DNA of 64,000 bases, from NCBI GenBank assembly GCA_035559535.1, contig DATMBG010000021.1, forward strand, positions 124,001-188,000, given 5' to 3'. Each line of letters starts with the position of its first letter. Position 1 is the stretch's first letter. The translations under genes and the position numbers were made by a program. The notes beneath the pieces were generated by a model, which was given only the letters and a program-made list of their open reading frames with translations, did not search any database and was not told the origin of the DNA. This DNA comes from Candidatus Limnocylindrales bacterium. Its GTDB lineage: Bacteria; Moduliflexota; Moduliflexia; Moduliflexales; JAUQPW01. Below are positions 5,312 through 45,065 of this stretch, one piece after another.

Positions 5312-8284
5312 TTAATTCCTGTTCTTAATTTTCTTTTGGGCGATTTGATTGCCTGGTTGAAGATTCAATACGGCCTCATATTCTTCCTGCGCTTTATCAA
5401 ATCGAGAAAGCTTCTCATAGAGAGCAGCCAGTTGGAGTCGATAATCAGGATCCTTAGGGTTCTTCCGAACGATTGCTTCCCATTGTTGGGTAGCCTCATA
5501 AATCATCCCCTTGCTCAGGTAAAGATCTGCTAGGAAGCGTCGATAGGATACGTTTTGAGAATCTAAAGCGATGGCTACTTTAGTTTCTTTAACCGCCTCT
5601 AACCAGTTTCCCATCTGGTTCTGATACAGGGCCAGTTTATGTCTGGCTACTGCATCATCAGTCCTTATATCCAGGTACCGATTCCAGGTAGTAATAACTT
5701 CAAAGGGTTTTCCTATCTGGTGATAAAGATTCGCCAACCCCTCGTAATACTTCCGTTCAAGGGGTTGTAAACCTATCGCATCTTGATAGGCCTCGATGGC
5801 TTTAGGGAGGTTACCCATTTGCACGTATATTTCTGCCAGGAGTCCATAAAGTTCCGGTTGCCGAGGCATCAACTCCAGCGCCTTATGATAAGCTTTCAAA
5901 GCACGCTCCGGTTGCTTCATTTGAATCCATACCTCTCCTATTCCTCGCCAGGCTTGAATATTATCGGGTTTTATCTCAACAATTTTCTCATATTCTTCCA
6001 ATGCTTTCTTCCCACTTTCCTTTTCTCCCGGTTCATTGTTTCTGGTTTCTCCATATCCGGGTACTCCTACACCCCTACCAAGAGCCTGGTAAGCACGAGC
6101 GATTTGAAAACGAATCGACACATTTTCAGGATCTTTCTCCAGGAGGCGGCGCCAAAGAGAAATGGCCTTCAAGGGTTTCCCTCGTTGGGTGTAAAATCTG
6201 GCAAATTCTTCACAATAGATGGGATCGTTCTGGGTTAACTGAAGAACTTTCTCATATTCAGCCTCTCCTTCCGACCAAAGGTTCTTGTGAACCAGGAATC
6301 GAGCAAATTGAAGCCGGGCTTCCGGCGTATTTGGAACGCTTTCTTCGCATAGGTTATAGCGTTTTCCATAGAGGAGACATTCTTCGAGAACGTCGGAAAG
6401 TTGGGAGATATTCAGTAAGAGAGCCTGACGATAAGCAGAAATTCCACATTCTGGCTTCCCTTGCAAAAAGCAATAGCGAGCCAGGTTCCGATGGTAATAA
6501 GGGTTACGGGGGTATAATAAAACGGCTTTCTCAAACTCGGCCAGGGCCGCGGTCTGATTTCCCAGTCTTGCATACACCCATCCTAAATTTAGATGAGAAC
6601 CCGGCTCAAAAGGATTAAGGGCTACCGATCGGGCATGGAATTCCAGAGCTTTTTTCCAATTTTCTTGAATCTTTTCTTTTTCTTCCTCTGTTTCCTTACC
6701 TCCTTGTACGGTTACAGGCTTATTTCCTGCTTCCAAATAAGCATTTCCCAACCCGGTCTGATAAACGGCATTTCCTCCCTCCAGGCGAATAGCCTTTTCA
6801 TAAGCTTGGAAGGCTTCCTGCCACCGGCCATTTTTTTGATAACCCTGGGCCTGGTGAAAGTAAACTTCTGCCAGATATGCTTTTGCCGTCCAGGAAATAA
6901 AAATCAGAATCAGAAATATTCCTACCCAAAACGGGAGAATAGGCCAACGGGAGAACAGGAAGCGGAATATTGGATTCCAAATCCCTCCACCCTTCCCCTT
7001 TCCCCTTTTCCTTTGAGGGGTTGTGGTGAATCGTAAGGAGACCATTAAAATAGCCAGGATGGTGGTAAGGAGGAGGGCGTTGGCCGGGACCCGGAGATTA
7101 AAATCCACTATTCCATGGAATAGAAAAGCCAATACGCTGGTAAGGGCTGTCAAAGTGAGAAGCTTCAGAGATCGTTCCTCGGGTGAAAAATAGGCAGTTA
7201 AGGCCGATTGAAAAACCCGTTGGATTCCCCAAAGGAAAACAATCAATCCGAGTAATCCGGTATCTACGAGAAGTTCGATGTAGATACTTTCTGCGTGGAA
7301 GGCCCTGAGGGATTCACCCAGATAAGGGGCATATTTAAGGAAAACGTACTGAAAGGTACCCAGGCCGGTACCCAGCAAAGGTGCTTCTTTGAGGAGTTCT
7401 AGACTATTCTGCCAGAAGGTGAGTCGGATAAGTGTGGATTCATCCCATTGGCCACCTAGCCAGGTCTTCTCGATCCGCTCAATGACCGGCATGATTCCTA
7501 TCCAGGACAGATAGGTTAAAATGGCCAAGAAGAGAGCTAAGAGGATCCAAACAGGTTTCTGGTCTGTTCGGCGGATGGCCAGACAAATACTTAAAAAAAT
7601 CAGTGACAGGAGAAGACTGATGATGCCGCCCCGGGATAAAGAAAGCGCCAGGGCAGTTCCCATTATGGCAACCAGTAGACCTAAAAGGAGTTTTTTTTCC
7701 CATTGCCGGGTTAAGAAAGTCAGGCCGATGGCCAGCGGAATTATCAATTCAAGATAAACGGCAAAGTGGGTTGGGCTGATGAAGGTTCCGGCCATCATAC
7801 CCTGGGGAACTTCCCGTCCCAGTAAATGAGTAAACCCTTGAAAATAGCGGATAAGACCAAAAAAAGCTTCCAGACTCCCAGCAATCACAAGAATAGAAAC
7901 CAGCCCAACTAACTGACGTTGGGTTCGCAGATGGTAGACTAAAACCTGATAAAAGAGACAATAAGTTAAAAATTGGTAGAGCCACTCCCTGGTCACGTAG
8001 GGATAGATAGAAAAGCAGGTATTAAGAATCACGAGGATAAAACCCAGCAACAGTGGCGTATTCAATGGGGTTCGAGATCGAACAAAAAGATAAAATGGTT
8101 CCTCTTTACTTTCCAGATAAATCTGCAGGATCCAGGCCAGGGTTATAAATCCTACTGTGAGCCGCATCACCGTAGTAGCCCAGAGATCTATAGAACCAAA
8201 GGCCAGGGGGGTAAAAAAGACAAGAAAGAGGAAACCTAGCTGGGTAAAAATATAAAAGAACTTAACCTCCTTTGATCTGTTCAT
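5312..8284 (-). CDS. O-antigen ligase/polymerase (Wzy_C family) with long C-terminal TPR region
   Basis: A 990-residue membrane protein. The first about 470 residues form a dozen hydrophobic helices with the Wzy_C/WaaL region: LSRGGIISLLLSLIF, then APLLGTGLGTFQYVF and FHAESIYIELLVDTGLLGL in the large periplasmic loop. After the last helix at about 450-470, residues about 475-985 are tandem tetratricopeptide repeats (for example GRWQEAFQAYEKAIRLE, GNLPKAIEAYQDAIGLQP). Family members join O-antigen or capsule repeats or transfer glycan to an acceptor; which applies is not decidable here. The TPR half predicts a protein-protein platform outside the membrane. ATG at 8284 has no strong ribosome binding site. 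Confidence 0.87.
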   Translation of the reverse strand: MNRSKEVKFFYIFTQLGFLFLVFFTPLAFGSIDLWATTVMRLTVGFITLAWILQIYLESKEEPFYLFVRSRTPLNTPLLLGFILVILNTCFSIYPYVTREWLYQFLTYCLFYQVLVYHLRTQRQLVGLVSILVIAGSLEAFFGLIRYFQGFTHLLGREVPQGMMAGTFISPTHFAVYLELIIPLAIGLTFLTRQWEKKLLLGLLVAIMGTALALSLSRGGIISLLLSLIFLSICLAIRRTDQKPVWILLALFLAILTYLSWIGIMPVIERIEKTWLGGQWDESTLIRLTFWQNSLELLKEAPLLGTGLGTFQYVFLKYAPYLGESLRAFHAESIYIELLVDTGLLGLIVFLWGIQRVFQSALTAYFSPEERSLKLLTLTALTSVLAFLFHGIVDFNLRVPANALLLTTILAILMVSLRFTTTPQRKRGKGKGGGIWNPIFRFLFSRWPILPFWVGIFLILIFISWTAKAYLAEVYFHQAQGYQKNGRWQEAFQAYEKAIRLEGGNAVYQTGLGNAYLEAGNKPVTVQGGKETEEEKEKIQENWKKALEFHARSVALNPFEPGSHLNLGWVYARLGNQTAALAEFEKAVLLYPRNPYYHRNLARYCFLQGKPECGISAYRQALLLNISQLSDVLEECLLYGKRYNLCEESVPNTPEARLQFARFLVHKNLWSEGEAEYEKVLQLTQNDPIYCEEFARFYTQRGKPLKAISLWRRLLEKDPENVSIRFQIARAYQALGRGVGVPGYGETRNNEPGEKESGKKALEEYEKIVEIKPDNIQAWRGIGEVWIQMKQPERALKAYHKALELMPRQPELYGLLAEIYVQMGNLPKAIEAYQDAIGLQPLERKYYEGLANLYHQIGKPFEVITTWNRYLDIRTDDAVARHKLALYQNQMGNWLEAVKETKVAIALDSQNVSYRRFLADLYLSKGMIYEATQQWEAIVRKNPKDPDYRLQLAALYEKLSRFDKAQEEYEAVLNLQPGNQIAQKKIKNRN

Positions 8285-8290
8285 GGAAGA

Positions 8291-10045
8291 TCACTCGATA
8301 TAGATCCTTAGTCTCTTGGGATTTACCCCCATGGTGCGCAGATAATCCAGTTTACTTTCGGGTACTTTCGTACTTGAGACCAGCACCTCTTTAACCCCGT
8401 AAGTACGGATCAAATCCGGCAGTTTTTGGGTATCAAAAATGCGACAACCATGGATAAGCTTACCGGTCTTACGGGTATCATCATCCACGAAGCCTACCGG
8501 CAGGTAGCGATGATTTGGATTATTAAGGATTTCTCGAATCAAAAGCTCACCTCCATCGCCTGCACCATAGATGAGTACCGGTTTTGCATCTGGCAGAAGG
8601 TTTGAGCGATCTACAATCAACACCCGCAGTAATCGAAAGGATAGACGGCTTGCACTTACAAATACCAAAAGCAGAAGGGCATTCAGTACCAATACACCCT
8701 GCGAAGGTCCGTGGAAGTTATAGATGGTGAACACAACCATTGAACTGGATGTTGCCCCCATGATGACCGATTTTGCGATGACGACGAGGTCATCAATTCC
8801 CGTGTAACGCCACAACCCGCTGTAAACCCCTCCCAGTAAGAAAAACGGCATTTGTATCATAATCATCAGAGGGAGTGTTTCGATGAAAATGGCCAGTTGT
8901 TGGTCTGGTAGACTGGCATCCCAGCGCAATACATAGGCCCCATAGTAGGCCATGACCACAAGGATCACATCCAGCAAGATTTCGAAGACACGACGTTTAT
9001 AGTAGAAATCTGCCAGTGCATTAGTAATCGTATTCCCCGAGATGGGAGGTTCGTTCGCCGCCTGGATACTTACTTTACCCAGGTAAAGTCCCAGAAACAG
9101 GATGGTTAGTGCAAAGCTCGGGACGAGTAATAACACGGCTTCGACTTTTAGGACTCTAACCAGCAACGCCAGTATACCCGAAGCCGTCGCAAAAAGGTAA
9201 AGCATGAGGACGGCTCGACGTTCGGACATACCCAGGGCCACGAGCCGATGGGACGTATGGTCCCGTCCACCCTGAGAGATGGGGCGACCGGATAACTTCC
9301 GGGTGATCGTCACCATACAGGTATCAAAGATGGGGATCATCAGAATTAAAACCGGTGTGAATAAAACTGCGATGAGATTACGTGAACGGCCATAGTCACT
9401 GAGTAAAGCGATTCCACCCAGCATGAAACCTAAAAACATAGAGCCACAATCCCCCATGAAAATAGAGGCCGGATGAAAATTAAACACCAGAAACCCGAAC
9501 ACAGCACCGCCCAGAAGGGTCGAAATCAGGGCTTCCGGGGTCTGTCCATTGAGGAGGAAGGTAATCGTAAGAAACACACAGGAAATAAAGGTTATTCCAC
9601 CGGCAAGACCATCCATATTGTCCAGCAGATTAAGGGCATTGGTGATCCCTACCAGCCAAAAGATGGTTATGACATCGTTTATGGCCTTATAGCCTGTCCA
9701 GGGCAAGTGCAATCCAAAGTAAACGATCCCGGCCGCAGCAATCAACTGGATGATGAGTTTGGTGTAGGGTTTAATTTGAATAATATCATCTATCAGCCCG
9801 GTCAAAAACAGTAAGGTACCTGAGATCAGAATAGGATAAATGTACGAGGGTTTCGATCCAAAAAGAAGGTAACCTATACCAAACGCCAGATAAATGGCAA
9901 TGCCTCCCAGCAGAGGAGTAGCTTTTTTATGCCAGCGATCTTGCCGGGGGGTGGCTACAATACCGATCCAATATACAACGGCCCGGACTATGGGAGTCAG
10001 AGCCAATCCCAATAACCACGTACAGAGTCCGCCTAAGAGAATCAT
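8291..10045 (-). CDS. WecA/MraY-type phosphoglycosyl transferase fused to a FlaA1/CapD-like N-terminal half
   Basis: Residues 1-330 are a polyprenyl-phosphate HexNAc-1-phosphate transferase, the enzyme that starts a glycan on undecaprenyl phosphate. Seen are ALNLLDNMDGLAGG, ASIFMGDCGSMFLG and the HTSHR loop. Residues about 350-584 hold four more helices (LPLMIMIQMPFFLLGGVYSGL) and a Rossmann-like domain (VLIYGAGDGGELLIREIL, then LPVGFVDDDTRKTG). These match the N-terminal half of FlaA1/CapD/PglF-type nucleotide-sugar dehydratases, but the catalytic SDR half is absent. WecA proteins are usually about 350 residues, so the extra 230 are a true fusion within one open frame. It precedes the ligase/polymerase gene by 6 bp. 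Confidence 0.9.
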   Translation of the reverse strand: MILLGGLCTWLLGLALTPIVRAVVYWIGIVATPRQDRWHKKATPLLGGIAIYLAFGIGYLLFGSKPSYIYPILISGTLLFLTGLIDDIIQIKPYTKLIIQLIAAAGIVYFGLHLPWTGYKAINDVITIFWLVGITNALNLLDNMDGLAGGITFISCVFLTITFLLNGQTPEALISTLLGGAVFGFLVFNFHPASIFMGDCGSMFLGFMLGGIALLSDYGRSRNLIAVLFTPVLILMIPIFDTCMVTITRKLSGRPISQGGRDHTSHRLVALGMSERRAVLMLYLFATASGILALLVRVLKVEAVLLLVPSFALTILFLGLYLGKVSIQAANEPPISGNTITNALADFYYKRRVFEILLDVILVVMAYYGAYVLRWDASLPDQQLAIFIETLPLMIMIQMPFFLLGGVYSGLWRYTGIDDLVVIAKSVIMGATSSSMVVFTIYNFHGPSQGVLVLNALLLLVFVSASRLSFRLLRVLIVDRSNLLPDAKPVLIYGAGDGGELLIREILNNPNHRYLPVGFVDDDTRKTGKLIHGCRIFDTQKLPDLIRTYGVKEVLVSSTKVPESKLDYLRTMGVNPKRLRIYIE

Positions 10046-10081: not shown

Positions 10082-11089
10082 TTAGATCTGAAAAGCAGCA
10101 GGAGCCGGAGTACCAACTTGTTTGGCGATTTTAGCTCTCTGATGCTCAATAACGCTCAGGAGTATCTCATCTAGAGTGATTTTCGGGGTATAACCGATCA
10201 ACTTATGTATTTTAGATAGATCTGGAACTCGCCGCAGCATGTCTTCGAAGCCTTGTTCATAGGCTTTATCGTAGGGGATGAAAACTATGCGGGAATTAGA
10301 CCCGGTTAGCTGTTTAATCCTTTCAGCGAGTTCTAAGATGGTAACTTCCTGGGTACTACCGATATTATAAACTTCTCCTACGGCCTGGGGATGCTCTGCA
10401 AGTTGGATCAGTGCTTCCACCACATCGGAAACATGGGTGAAACATCGACTCTGAGAACCATCTCCAAATACCGTGATATCTTCCCCTGTAAGAGCCTGAC
10501 GCACGAAGCTGGGGATTACCATGCCATAACGACCGGTTTGACGAGGACCGACCGTATTAAATAGCCTGGCAATGACGGTTGGAACGCGCTTCTCTTTCCA
10601 ATAGGCAATAGCTAAAAATTCGTCGATGGCCTTCGAACAGGCATAGCTCCATCGGGCCTTACTGGTTGGACCCATGACCAAATCATCATCTTCCCGAAAG
10701 GGGACCTGGTTCCGCTTGCCATAAACCTCTGAAGTTGAGGTAATAAGAACCCGTTTACGTTTCTTAGCAGCCAACTCCAGTACGATCTCGGTACCCCGGA
10801 TATTCGTCTCAATGGTTCTAACCGGACTTTCCACAATTAACCGGACACCCACGGCCGCTGCCAGATGATAGATGATATCGCACAAATCAATAAGCTCAGC
10901 AGTAAGCCGATAGTTATTGACCGTATCAATATAATAGGTAAAGTTAGGATGAGTTTTTATATGCCGGATATTCTCGATGGTACCGGTTGAGAGATCATCG
11001 ATAATGTAAACTTCATCGCCTCGATCCAGGTGACGCTCAACCAGGTGTGAACCGATAAATCCGGCCCCGCCTGTAATTAAAACCTTCAT
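10082..11089 (-). CDS. NAD-dependent nucleotide-sugar epimerase/dehydratase (extended SDR)
   Basis: A 335-residue extended short-chain dehydrogenase acting on a nucleotide sugar in the cytoplasm. It has the N-terminal NAD motif GGAGFIGSHL, catalytic TSEVYG and YACSK (the YxxxK pair), and VFGDGSQSRCFTHVSD in the substrate domain. The closest groups are UDP-glucose/GlcNAc 4-epimerases and UDP-glucuronate decarboxylases; sequence alone does not separate them. The ATG has GGGAGG six bases upstream. It lies between a GT4 gene and the initiating transferase, consistent with supplying an activated sugar early in the chain. Confidence 0.88.
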   Translation of the reverse strand: MKVLITGGAGFIGSHLVERHLDRGDEVYIIDDLSTGTIENIRHIKTHPNFTYYIDTVNNYRLTAELIDLCDIIYHLAAAVGVRLIVESPVRTIETNIRGTEIVLELAAKKRKRVLITSTSEVYGKRNQVPFREDDDLVMGPTSKARWSYACSKAIDEFLAIAYWKEKRVPTVIARLFNTVGPRQTGRYGMVIPSFVRQALTGEDITVFGDGSQSRCFTHVSDVVEALIQLAEHPQAVGEVYNIGSTQEVTILELAERIKQLTGSNSRIVFIPYDKAYEQGFEDMLRRVPDLSKIHKLIGYTPKITLDEILLSVIEHQRAKIAKQVGTPAPAAFQI

Positions 11090-11132: not shown

Positions 11133-12428
11133 TCAGGTAAAAAAAGCCTGAGAAGTTGAAACGTTAAACTCGAAACTTGAAACGTTAGGACGGTTTATTA
11201 ATTCTCGATATAGATTTTCTATATCTCCTATGAGTCGATCTTTAGAGAAATTTGCCTTCACAAAGGCATGCCCTCGTTTTCCCATCTCACGACGGAGCTC
11301 TGGATGCTCCATTAAATATTTCAGTGCACGGGCAAATAGGAAAGCATTCTGACCGGGTACGGTAATTCCATGATCCCAAATTGAAAAACCGTTATGTAAT
11401 TCTCTGCGCGTACCCATCAGATCAACAACTCCCCCAACCTCTGTTGCTATGACCGCTCGATGGTAACATAAAGCCTCAAGCAATGTCAAGGGAGTTCCTT
11501 CATTAAGTGAGGTGAGTACCACCAGATCAAAAGCAGCATAAAGCGATAAGACATCTTTGCGGAAACCCAGAAACGTTACCTGGGCTGAAATACCCAGCTT
11601 ATGGGACAATGATTCCAATTCCTTGCGCAGATGACCGTCCCCCACCATAACGAGGTGGACCTGAACTTCTTGTGCGGTAAGTTGCGCTACGGCTTCGAGC
11701 AGCAGAGCAGGATTCTTGACTTCACATAAACGACCTACCATCCCGATGAGTAACTTATCTCGGGTTACTCCCAGTTCTTCTCGCAAATTGCTCCTATCTT
11801 CAGCCCTCTCATTTAAATCAATACCCAGCGGAATGACCCGAAACTGTTCGGGGTTTCCTACACGAAAATGTTCTGAGATTTCCCGACGTTGTTGTTCACT
11901 GATGGCAATGATCCGATCTGTAAAAAGCCTGGCTAAAATCCGTTCAATGGTGATGAAAAACCGGGTCTTGAAGGGACCGTAATAGCTATGGAAAATGTGA
12001 CCGTGGTAAGTATGTACAAGATAACATGTACGCGGACGGAGCCATAAGATCGAGGGAGTTGCCCATTTATAAATGATTCCGGCGATACGTCCCACGGCAC
12101 CGGCTTTGGCTTTATGGGTATGGATAATGTGGGGTTTCAATTTCCAGAACCGGTAGAGTAGTTTCAGGATGACTACCACGTCCCTCAGGTTGATCTCCCG
12201 GCTCATCTCCTGGATCACCACCGGGTTGACGCCTGCTGCACGGGCAAAATAGCCCATGTCGCCTTCACCCCATGGAACAATACCCGTGATAAGCACGGTT
12301 TCGAACTCTTTTGGATTCAACCCGGAGGTTAACCAGGTAACGTGCTTGGCCGGACCTCCAATGTTAAGCCGATCAATGATACGTACAACACGGATAGGAG
12401 TATGAGTCGAAGCCTTTTCTTGATTCAT
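11133..12428 (-). CDS. Glycosyltransferase family 4 (GT-B)
   Basis: A 431-residue GT-B glycosyltransferase. The N-terminal domain has DRLNIGGPAKHVTWLTSGL (acceptor-side glycine-rich loop). The C-terminal domain has IGMVGRLCEVKNPALLLEA and the retaining-GT motif NEGTPLTLLEALCYHRAVIA, in which the two glutamates contact the donor sugar nucleotide. The donor and acceptor cannot be named. The last 17 residues (from NVSSFEF) are encoded by low-complexity DNA with repeated TTGAAACGTT-like words and are unlike the family, so the native end may have been near YRELINR and been extended by non-coding sequence. Confidence 0.9.
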   Translation of the reverse strand: MNQEKASTHTPIRVVRIIDRLNIGGPAKHVTWLTSGLNPKEFETVLITGIVPWGEGDMGYFARAAGVNPVVIQEMSREINLRDVVVILKLLYRFWKLKPHIIHTHKAKAGAVGRIAGIIYKWATPSILWLRPRTCYLVHTYHGHIFHSYYGPFKTRFFITIERILARLFTDRIIAISEQQRREISEHFRVGNPEQFRVIPLGIDLNERAEDRSNLREELGVTRDKLLIGMVGRLCEVKNPALLLEAVAQLTAQEVQVHLVMVGDGHLRKELESLSHKLGISAQVTFLGFRKDVLSLYAAFDLVVLTSLNEGTPLTLLEALCYHRAVIATEVGGVVDLMGTRRELHNGFSIWDHGITVPGQNAFLFARALKYLMEHPELRREMGKRGHAFVKANFSKDRLIGDIENLYRELINRPNVSSFEFNVSTSQAFFT

Positions 12429-42928: not shown

Positions 42929-43815
42929 TTCCTGGAGATAATTCGTGGATACTCAGAGACCACCAGACTATCTTCTGGAACCGATCCTGTAACCGTTGTC
43001 CCCATCCCCACAATCACCCGATCCCCTATCTTTGCCCCCTTAAGAATCAGGGATCGCATTCCAATCCAGACATCATTTCCGATTTCGATGGGTTTCGTGA
43101 GGGGTCTGGCAACTTCCTCCATCCCTACCGGATAACCCACTTCCATCCGATGACGACGCTCCTTCCAATCAACTGAATGGGCGTTTGTATCGTAAACCAC
43201 TACGTCATAGGATATCAAACAATAATCCCCGATCGTTATGGCCTCTTCGCATCGTAGCAAGGCTCCCATCCCGATGCCGGTATATTGGCCGACTTTGAGC
43301 CGACCTCCAAAGCGAACAAAAATATCTCCACTCACATGAACTCTGGGTCCAAATACCGCCGAACCTTTATTTATAATCACAGAGAACGGATGATTTGGTT
43401 CACAAACAAAGACACCGCCGGCAGCAATATCCAAAACCCCGGCCTGGGAAACCTGAATGCTCACCCCTCGAAGTTGGACCCCTTCACCCAACGTAACCGT
43501 GGAATTGTCCCCCACCATTATGGTGGCATCTTGCAGGGTACAGAAATCCCCGGCTTGTAAAGTTGCCTTTCTACCCACCTTTATGTGGACCCTGGATAAA
43601 GCCACGTGGTTGCCGAGTTGAATAGTGCCGAAGGGATCACATGATAAACGGGAATAAATATCGGCATGGCTGTCTCTTCCCATCCTTACAGATTTTGTAA
43701 GTCCCATACGGGGAAGCATATTGGCCTGAAAAAGATTCTCCAAAGCCCGGGCAACTCGGGCGACCTTTCGGGCAGCACGACCCATGGGGGAGTTTGACAA
43801 AACCAACAACCTCAT
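42925..43815 (-). CDS. Left-handed beta-helix O-acyltransferase (hexapeptide family)
   Basis: A 296-residue hexapeptide-repeat protein. The N-terminal 80 residues are not repeat-like; after that come rungs such as IQLGNHVALSRVHIKVGRKA, and near the end NDVWIGMRSLILKGAKIGDR and VIVGMGTTVTGSVPEDSLVV, the standard acetyl-CoA-dependent acetyltransferase signature. A VVVYDTNAHSVDW segment carries the candidate catalytic His. The ATG at 43815 overlaps the stop of the Wzt gene (ATGA); an ATG four codons earlier is less likely. Confidence 0.85.
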   Translation of the reverse strand: MRLLVLSNSPMGRAARKVARVARALENLFQANMLPRMGLTKSVRMGRDSHADIYSRLSCDPFGTIQLGNHVALSRVHIKVGRKATLQAGDFCTLQDATIMVGDNSTVTLGEGVQLRGVSIQVSQAGVLDIAAGGVFVCEPNHPFSVIINKGSAVFGPRVHVSGDIFVRFGGRLKVGQYTGIGMGALLRCEEAITIGDYCLISYDVVVYDTNAHSVDWKERRHRMEVGYPVGMEEVARPLTKPIEIGNDVWIGMRSLILKGAKIGDRVIVGMGTTVTGSVPEDSLVVSEYPRIISRK

Positions 43816-45065
43816 ACTACTTCCCATTCCTGGTCCACCAGGAGTCCTCCATGACTTGGAGGAGGTAAACGTCCGGTACCAAAAAAATCTCCGGCCTCTA
43901 CGGTCAACTGCCCGGCATCTTGAATCCAGTCTTCGATCTCTCCCTTCCGTCGCAGGATAAAGTTAAGATTAAACACACCGGGTGCCAGGGGGAGTCTGGG
44001 AATCTTGCACCGTATTCGGCCAGAACGATTAAGGCCACTAAACTCAGCCCCTGTCAGTTGATTGTTGCATTGAATCAAATGCTGGCCGTAAAGGGTAAAG
44101 ATACCGATCCCGAAAACCATATCATCCAGAGGTACAGAATCCCTGGCTTCATAGGACAATACGATATTAAGTTCCTGCCCGGATATGGCAAACTCGACTT
44201 TCCGGCCCTGATTATCCATTAAACAATAATCCGTAAGGACAATATGACCACAACCCCGTCGGTCTAAGCGATCCCGGAGAGGAATTGAACGCAGAACGGA
44301 GAGATCTTCCAGGTATTGACGGATAATAACCGAAACGGCTCCGGAATCGACCAGCCGACCCTCCTTTATCCAGCACGCCCGGTTGCAGAGGGCTTCCACA
44401 GCCGCCATATTGTGGCTTACAAAGAGTACACTTCGTCCTTCTTTAGCCACTTCTCCCATCTTTCCCAGACATTTTTTCTGGAAACCTGCATCCCCCACGG
44501 CCAGTACCTCATCCACCAGAAGGATCTCCGGCTCTAAATGGGCGGCTACGGAAAAAGCCAGCCGTACATACATGCCACTGGAATAATATTTGACGGGAGT
44601 ATTTAAAAATTTCTCTACTTCGGCAAAGGCCACAATTTCATCAAACTTTCGATCTATCTCGGCTTTTCTCATACCCAGAATGGCGCCATTCAGGTAGATG
44701 TTTTCTCGCCCCGTCAATTCAGGATGGAAACCCGTCCCCACCTCCAGTAAGGATCCTACCCGGCCATGAATCTCGGCGTAGCCTTCAGTGGGTTCTGTGA
44801 TGCGGGAAAGAATTTTTAGAAGTGTGGATTTACCGGCTCCATTACGACCGATGATACCCACCACTTCGCCGCGCTGGACCTCAAAGGAAACCTCTTTGAG
44901 GGCCCATAGCGTCCGGTCTATCGGGTATCTCTTGTGTTGTAGGAATCTGAGGGGAACTTGAACCGCCCTGATCACAGACTCACGCAAGGTTGCGTAGGGA
45001 GCTCTATAAGTACCTAGACGATATTGCTTCCCCAGCCCTTCAATACGAATGGCTATTTTACCCAT
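43812..45065 (-). CDS. wzt: Wzt-type ABC transporter ATPase with C-terminal carbohydrate-binding domain
   Basis: A 417-residue ATPase that drives export of a finished lipid-linked polysaccharide. Residues about 1-240 are the nucleotide-binding domain: GIIGRNGAGKSTLLKIL (Walker A), YSSGMYVRLAFSVA (signature), ILLVDEVLAVGD (Walker B) and VLFVSHN (H-loop). Residues about 265-417 form a beta-rich Wzt_C domain (GIGIFTLYGQHLIQCN, LAPGVFNLNFILRRKGEIED), which in O9a-type systems recognises the modified chain end. Stop and start overlap the next gene. It lies 30 bases after the permease gene. Confidence 0.95.
   Translation of the reverse strand: MGKIAIRIEGLGKQYRLGTYRAPYATLRESVIRAVQVPLRFLQHKRYPIDRTLWALKEVSFEVQRGEVVGIIGRNGAGKSTLLKILSRITEPTEGYAEIHGRVGSLLEVGTGFHPELTGRENIYLNGAILGMRKAEIDRKFDEIVAFAEVEKFLNTPVKYYSSGMYVRLAFSVAAHLEPEILLVDEVLAVGDAGFQKKCLGKMGEVAKEGRSVLFVSHNMAAVEALCNRACWIKEGRLVDSGAVSVIIRQYLEDLSVLRSIPLRDRLDRRGCGHIVLTDYCLMDNQGRKVEFAISGQELNIVLSYEARDSVPLDDMVFGIGIFTLYGQHLIQCNNQLTGAEFSGLNRSGRIRCKIPRLPLAPGVFNLNFILRRKGEIEDWIQDAGQLTVEAGDFFGTGRLPPPSHGGLLVDQEWEVV

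Follow-up and report, generated by a model that had tools for sequence, protein, structure and literature searches.

Modules built of four transmembrane (TM) helices and a Rossmann domain (PF13727) are known from two settings, the FlaA1/CapD/PglF dehydratases, where they accompany an SDR domain (PF02719), and the large monotopic transferases (Lg-PGTs) WbaP, WcaJ and EpsZ, where they accompany PF02397. The authors of the WbaP structure called the N-terminal domains common to large monotopic transferases and PglF-like dehydratases "puzzling" (PMC10942596). In WbaP, the PF13727 domain is stabilised by UMP, UDP and UTP and destabilised by UDP-Gal, and the full-length enzyme is inhibited by UMP with an IC50 of 4.1 uM (PMC10942596). 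Dimerisation of WbaP is mediated by a beta6/beta7 hairpin (PMC10942596).

In the window, which is the whole 64,000-nucleotide stretch analysed here, a module of the dehydratase type is attached to a third, unrelated enzyme of the pathway, a predicted polytopic transferase of the WecA/MraY fold. The component families and the principle of an accessory module on an initiating transferase are already known, but we found no earlier description of a polytopic transferase combined with a FlaA1-type half in the open-licence PMC literature. Together with a natural lineage that has lost the nucleotide-binding motif, this arrangement provides a directly testable comparison, and it bears on how undecaprenyl phosphate is rationed among competing glycan pathways.

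Architecture of the fusion protein

The protein is encoded by a single ORF that is read from 10045 to 8291 on the minus strand, the plus strand being closed there; the initial annotation had named no strand.

8291..10045, minus strand: fusion ORF, 584 aa, ATG start, WecA-type polytopic phosphoglycosyl transferase plus FlaA1-type membrane/Rossmann module without SDR
9056..10045, minus strand: WecA/MraY-fold half, residues 1-330, 11 predicted TM helices (PF00953; PDB fold matches to MraY and DPAGT1; helices from the model)
9785..9790, minus strand: catalytic Asp pair D86-D87 (D in 45/46 and 46/46 thinned fusions and in 29/29 unfused proteins)
9245..9271, minus strand: cytoplasmic His loop GGRDHTSHR, residues 259-267, nearly invariant in fusions
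8999..9055, minus strand: linker, residues 331-349 (17-25 aa between both profile matches in 81 sequences)

Pfam recognised PF00953 (Glycos_transf_4) at residues 72-216 (E 5.5e-35; 121.1 bits against a gathering threshold of 27) and PF13727 (CoA_binding_3) at residues 412-556 (E 3.9e-7, above the gathering cut-off) in this ORF and nothing beyond them, with no SDR family, PF02719 or PF02397. The ORF ends after Rossmann strand beta5, and because its stop codon lies at 8291-8293 and the downstream gene begins at 8284, 6 bp past the stop, there is no space for an SDR domain. An AlphaFold model of the whole protein, based on a 62-row alignment, had a mean pLDDT of 86 and a pTM of 0.83. Judged from the model helices and the positions of the catalytic loops, the cytoplasmic side would contain these loops together with the WRY loop (406-414), the linker and the Rossmann domain. 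The initial annotation had described a WecA-type transferase fused to a FlaA1-type half that lacks the SDR part, and this anatomy proved right: the Pfam halves agree with the predicted structure, the SDR part is absent, and the C-terminal half, put at 230 residues, comprises about 235 (350-584) with four TM helices and a Rossmann domain, in which the GAGDGGELL stretch occupies residues 494-502.

Foldseek matched the model of the N-terminal half to MraY structures at a target TM of 0.67-0.76 and also to human DPAGT1. With WecA, MraY and DPAGT1 this half shares the fold, the DD, NxxNxxD, MGD and His-loop residues and the 11-helix topology; unlike them, the fusion protein bears an additional four-TM and Rossmann module. 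The transferase residues D86, D87, N136, N139, D142, D145, D199, H263 and H266 are conserved. The score against TIGR02380, the E. coli WecA equivalog model, was 119.6 bits with a cut-off of 326.05 bits, so the protein is not that equivalog. We infer that the fusion functions in the manner of a WecA and starts polymer synthesis by UDP-HexNAc-dependent priming, as a HexNAc-1-phosphate:undecaprenyl-phosphate transferase with the WecA/MraY fold.

Affiliation of the C-terminal module

8606..8998, minus strand: four-helix membrane bundle, residues 350-480, from the model, with a cytoplasmic GxYxGxWRY loop at 406-414
8306..8587, minus strand: Rossmann domain, residues 487-580 (PDB matches 3nkl, Rex and WbaP 8t53; DSSP), without a beta-hairpin after beta5
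8549..8566, minus strand: predicted nucleotide-binding motif GAGDGG, residues 494-499 (G494 in 100%, A495 in 100%, G496 in 97% and G499 in 99% of 110 fusions)
8477..8485, minus strand: DDD triplet 521-523, where strand beta2 ends (99/96/92% conserved in fusions; position by DSSP)

Modelled alone, the C-terminal half reached a pLDDT of 90, and its structure matched WbaP (8t53), Rex repressors and 3nkl, a Rossmann domain whose deposited name is UDP-quinovosamine 4-dehydrogenase. Residues of the nucleotide site show 90-100% conservation among the fusions, and DDD 521-523 are expected to provide ribose contacts. According to DSSP of the model, strand beta5 spans 575-578 and the chain ends about 6 residues past this last strand; the beta6/beta7 hairpin is therefore absent, as it also is from some EpsZ-type Lg-PGTs (PMC12802240).

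Profile scores, signature residues and tree position agree that the C-terminal half is FlaA1-type rather than Lg-PGT-type, which bears out the name it was initially given. In Acidobacteriota, the fusion profile matched full FlaA1 proteins at 1e-38 to 1e-61 while Lg-PGTs fell short of 1e-35; in the window's order the corresponding values were 1e-58 for FlaA1 and about 1e-28 to 1e-30 for Lg-PGTs. W412/R413/Y414, R471, G494-A495-G496, D521/D522 and K526 are common to the fusions and FlaA1 modules and variable in Lg-PGTs. In the module tree, Lg-PGT modules separate with 100/97 support, and next to FlaA1 the 68 fusion modules cluster together (94/81). NCBIfam matches had hinted at an Lg-PGT (WbaP) half; this candidate was rejected, as full FlaA1 proteins match the same models and both the tree and the signature residues place the module with FlaA1.

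The module thus shares with the FlaA1/CapD/PglF dehydratases its tree position and a membrane half with the WRY loop, R467, R471, GAGD, DD and K526, and differs from these proteins in that the SDR domain is missing and the module sits on the C-end of a transferase. With WbaP, WcaJ and EpsZ it shares the placement of a four-TM and Rossmann module on an initiating transferase, a fold that matches WbaP 8t53 and, as predicted for the fusion, the by-product UMP. In contrast to these enzymes, the catalytic fold of the fusion is polytopic and unrelated, PF02397 is absent, and the module lies at the opposite chain end, comes from another family branch (the 100/97 split) and lacks the beta-hairpin. In the host genome (96% complete), PF13727 is confined to five monotopic transferases and the fusion, and we found no true FlaA1 and no strong PF02719 protein (best 64 bits). 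We also observed, in the window's order, an 835-aa FlaA1 dehydratase in which the four-helix bundle is duplicated (L102:223-2727).

Distribution, origin and variant forms

Scanning GTDB species genomes yielded 80 loci, and 80/80 encode the same two-part protein without an SDR domain (median 599 aa, range 523-641 aa). By their record titles, these relatives belong to Acidobacteriota, Omnitrophota, Nitrospirota, Nitrospinota, Planctomycetota and Abditibacteriales, and the titles include Blastocatellia, Pyrinomonadaceae, Fuerstiella and Gemmataceae. We then surveyed even genome samples of single phyla, reading the counts by hand from the match tables. The fusion was complete in 19/119 Acidobacteriota genomes (and in one more lacked the Rossmann part), and was present in 22/145 Omnitrophota (one more at a contig edge) and 6/148 Nitrospirota (one more broken); in Planctomycetota it was complete in 7/149, with 7 more in which the match stops after the helices. 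Among four genomes examined from the window's phylum it occurs only in the window's own genus, and the WecA proteins of two genomes from another family of the window's order are unfused.

The window protein and a near relative (L003, 92% identity) gave dN/dS values of 0.17 for the WecA half, 0.145 for the bundle and 0.12 for the Rossmann domain; at about 0.12-0.17 in each part, these values indicate that both halves are maintained. The initial annotation had named separate genes in close relatives as the sign of a local error, and had called for the taxonomic spread to be checked; the 80 relatives retrieved are all fused, with the same architecture in several phyla. That the fusion is an artefact of annotation or assembly, or a gene in decay, is suggested by a few relatives with an in-frame stop or a contig-edge break (L154, L194), but it is refuted by the identical architecture of 80/80 relatives from independent assemblies and by purifying selection, and we give it virtually no chance. 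The in-frame stops in L154 and L194 may themselves reflect MAG error or decay.

In a tree of WecA halves, from which the MraY outgroup (L088) was dropped because its long branch gave an unusable root, those of the main fusions are set apart from unfused WecAs as a single group (support 100/99). It is thus well supported by the sequence comparison that the main fusion type arose once. L167 (Nitrospirota) led us to reject a single origin of all fusions: its WecA half falls among unfused proteins (AU p 0.016 against a common group), and its C-terminal half is compatible with a separate origin. L167:1411-3408 is a second, independent WecA and FlaA1-type fusion, and the same Nitrospirota genome (G388) has the main type too. 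In two Acidobacteriota, separate WecA and full FlaA1 genes adjoin each other in the same order and orientation (L146:1783-5175 and L178:1134-4204). Such gene pairs are plausible forerunners of a fusion with SDR loss.

Other combinations of these families were also encountered. L145:730-3867 encodes a 1046-aa three-part protein of WecA, FlaA1-type half and GT4, the GT4 being the usual neighbour gene. An Omnitrophota WecA of 760 aa is fused to an O-antigen ligase/Wzy_C domain (L183:2271-4550), and a 962-aa protein joins a Bac_transf monotopic transferase, a complete FlaA1 dehydratase and a response-regulator receiver domain (L152:1138-4023).

Seven Planctomycetota proteins from the 149 sampled genomes (L197-L203) keep the WecA catalytic residues and the helix bundle, including its signature at the D359, P392, Y408, W412, R467 and R471 positions, while their Rossmann part is short and GxGxxG and DDD are lost. 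Without the usual nucleotide binding, the module would have at least one other role there, as a scaffold or dimer contact. This motif loss shows that nucleotide sensing cannot be the module's only role everywhere. It also raises the alternative that the module is mainly structural, in which case bundle and Rossmann domain would keep the transferase dimeric or place it in a complex and nucleotide binding would be ancestral or fold-stabilising. In line with this alternative, the homologous WbaP domain forms most of the dimer interface (PMC10942596). However, the hairpin that mediates WbaP dimerisation is missing here, and the nucleotide site, which a pure structure would not need, has some of the best-conserved residues of the whole module in the remaining 110 fusions; we consider a mainly structural role rather unlikely. 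That several little-studied bacterial groups start their surface sugar polymers with an enzyme joined to a borrowed, non-catalytic membrane and nucleotide-binding module suggests that a sensor or dimer scaffold within the protein itself governs this costly initial step.

Proposed role and gene neighbourhood

The architecture of the fusion, its one main origin, its broad distribution, its maintenance by purifying selection and its intact transferase and nucleotide-site residues are well supported. A regulatory or substrate-sensing role of the C-terminal half, as initially put forward, is plausible, given that the nucleotide-site residues are kept and that the homologous WbaP domain binds uridine nucleotides. 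The reading we favour, to which we give an even chance, is that a priming transferase has been permanently joined to a non-catalytic FlaA1/CapD half acting as a uridine-nucleotide-sensing (UMP/UDP-sugar), dimerising regulator of the first committed step. The Rossmann domain would recognise a uridine nucleotide, for which UMP, the product, or a UDP-sugar is the likeliest candidate. The signal would then travel via the WRY loop and the helix bundle, which probably forms a dimer contact, to the transferase, and would throttle how much of the scarce undecaprenyl phosphate is committed to this exopolysaccharide. UMP is a by-product of polytopic transferases as well, and WbaP-like logic would therefore fit the fusion.

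Several points count against this reading. The ligand precedent comes from the Lg-PGT branch whereas the module belongs to the FlaA1 branch, and we know of no ligand for any FlaA1-type module. Rex structures, which bind NADH, resemble the fold roughly as closely as WbaP does, and the seven Planctomycetota proteins retain the module without its nucleotide motif. The WbaP dimer hairpin is likewise absent from the window protein. The Rex likeness leads to a different proposal, in which the Rossmann domain would respond to NAD(H), as Rex does, and tie exopolysaccharide initiation to the redox state of the cell. Foldseek matches to many NAD(H)-bound Rex structures (E 1e-5 to 1e-3), weak NCBIfam matches to Rex, and GxGxxG with acidic residues at the beta2 end are all consistent with a redox sensor, but these Rossmann features are generic and the sole measured ligands that we found for a PF13727 domain are uridine nucleotides (PMC10942596); we regard redox sensing as very improbable.

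Returning to uridine nucleotides, we tentatively extend our favoured reading, with somewhat less than an even chance, to the PF13727-type four-TM and Rossmann unit in general. This unit would be a portable uridine-nucleotide checkpoint on undecaprenyl-phosphate commitment, placed on two unrelated transferase folds and on the polytopic one at least twice, and the dehydratase-derived version would sense too. If true, nucleotide sensing by the dehydratase-derived module would explain why FlaA1 carries it.

The fusion lies in an exopolysaccharide locus that encodes a BY-kinase and Wzz (both named by eye), a Wza-type protein, Wzy_C-TPR, the fusion, an SDR, GT4 and a formyltransferase, and further AsnB (TIGR03108-like), a WecB-type epimerase, a hexapeptide transferase and a DegT aminotransferase.

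10082..11089, minus strand: extended SDR of LegB/UXS/GalE type rather than FlaA1 type, conserved neighbour, in several phyla the gene just upstream of the fusion
11133..12428, minus strand: GT4 glycosyltransferase, conserved neighbour, in L145 joined onto the fusion protein at its C-end
5312..8284, minus strand: O-antigen ligase/Wzy_C plus TPR, conserved neighbour

Within the window, the fusion is the only match to PF00953, PF13727 or PF02397, which makes it the likely starter of the locus polymer. The gene order AsnB-GT4-SDR-fusion-(x)-Wzy is repeated in many relatives. We rejected, as a simple reading, that a FlaA1 is split here and that the upstream SDR (10082-11089) supplies its catalytic part, since LegB/UXS/GalE models fit that SDR better; its PF02719 score is only 69 bits, and the genome holds no strong PF02719.

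The conserved neighbourhood could also mean that the module is a docking platform for the neighbouring SDR/GT4 or for a regulator protein, which would couple sugar-nucleotide synthesis, priming and second-sugar transfer. The order GT4-(SDR)-fusion is kept across phyla, GT4 is fused to the end of the L145 protein, and the module is of dehydratase descent, with separate adjoining WecA-FlaA1 pairs in L146 and L178. There is also a precedent in EpsW~P, which stimulates the large monotopic transferase EpsZ, probably by direct contact (PMC12802240). Synteny is, however, common in polysaccharide clusters, and the SDR neighbour is missing from many Pyrinomonadaceae loci; we judge a docking role distinctly unlikely. 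We also note that an ABC transporter ATPase with Wzt_C is encoded at 43812-45065 of the window, in the same cluster as the Wza/Wzy-type genes, which places two export routes in one locus.
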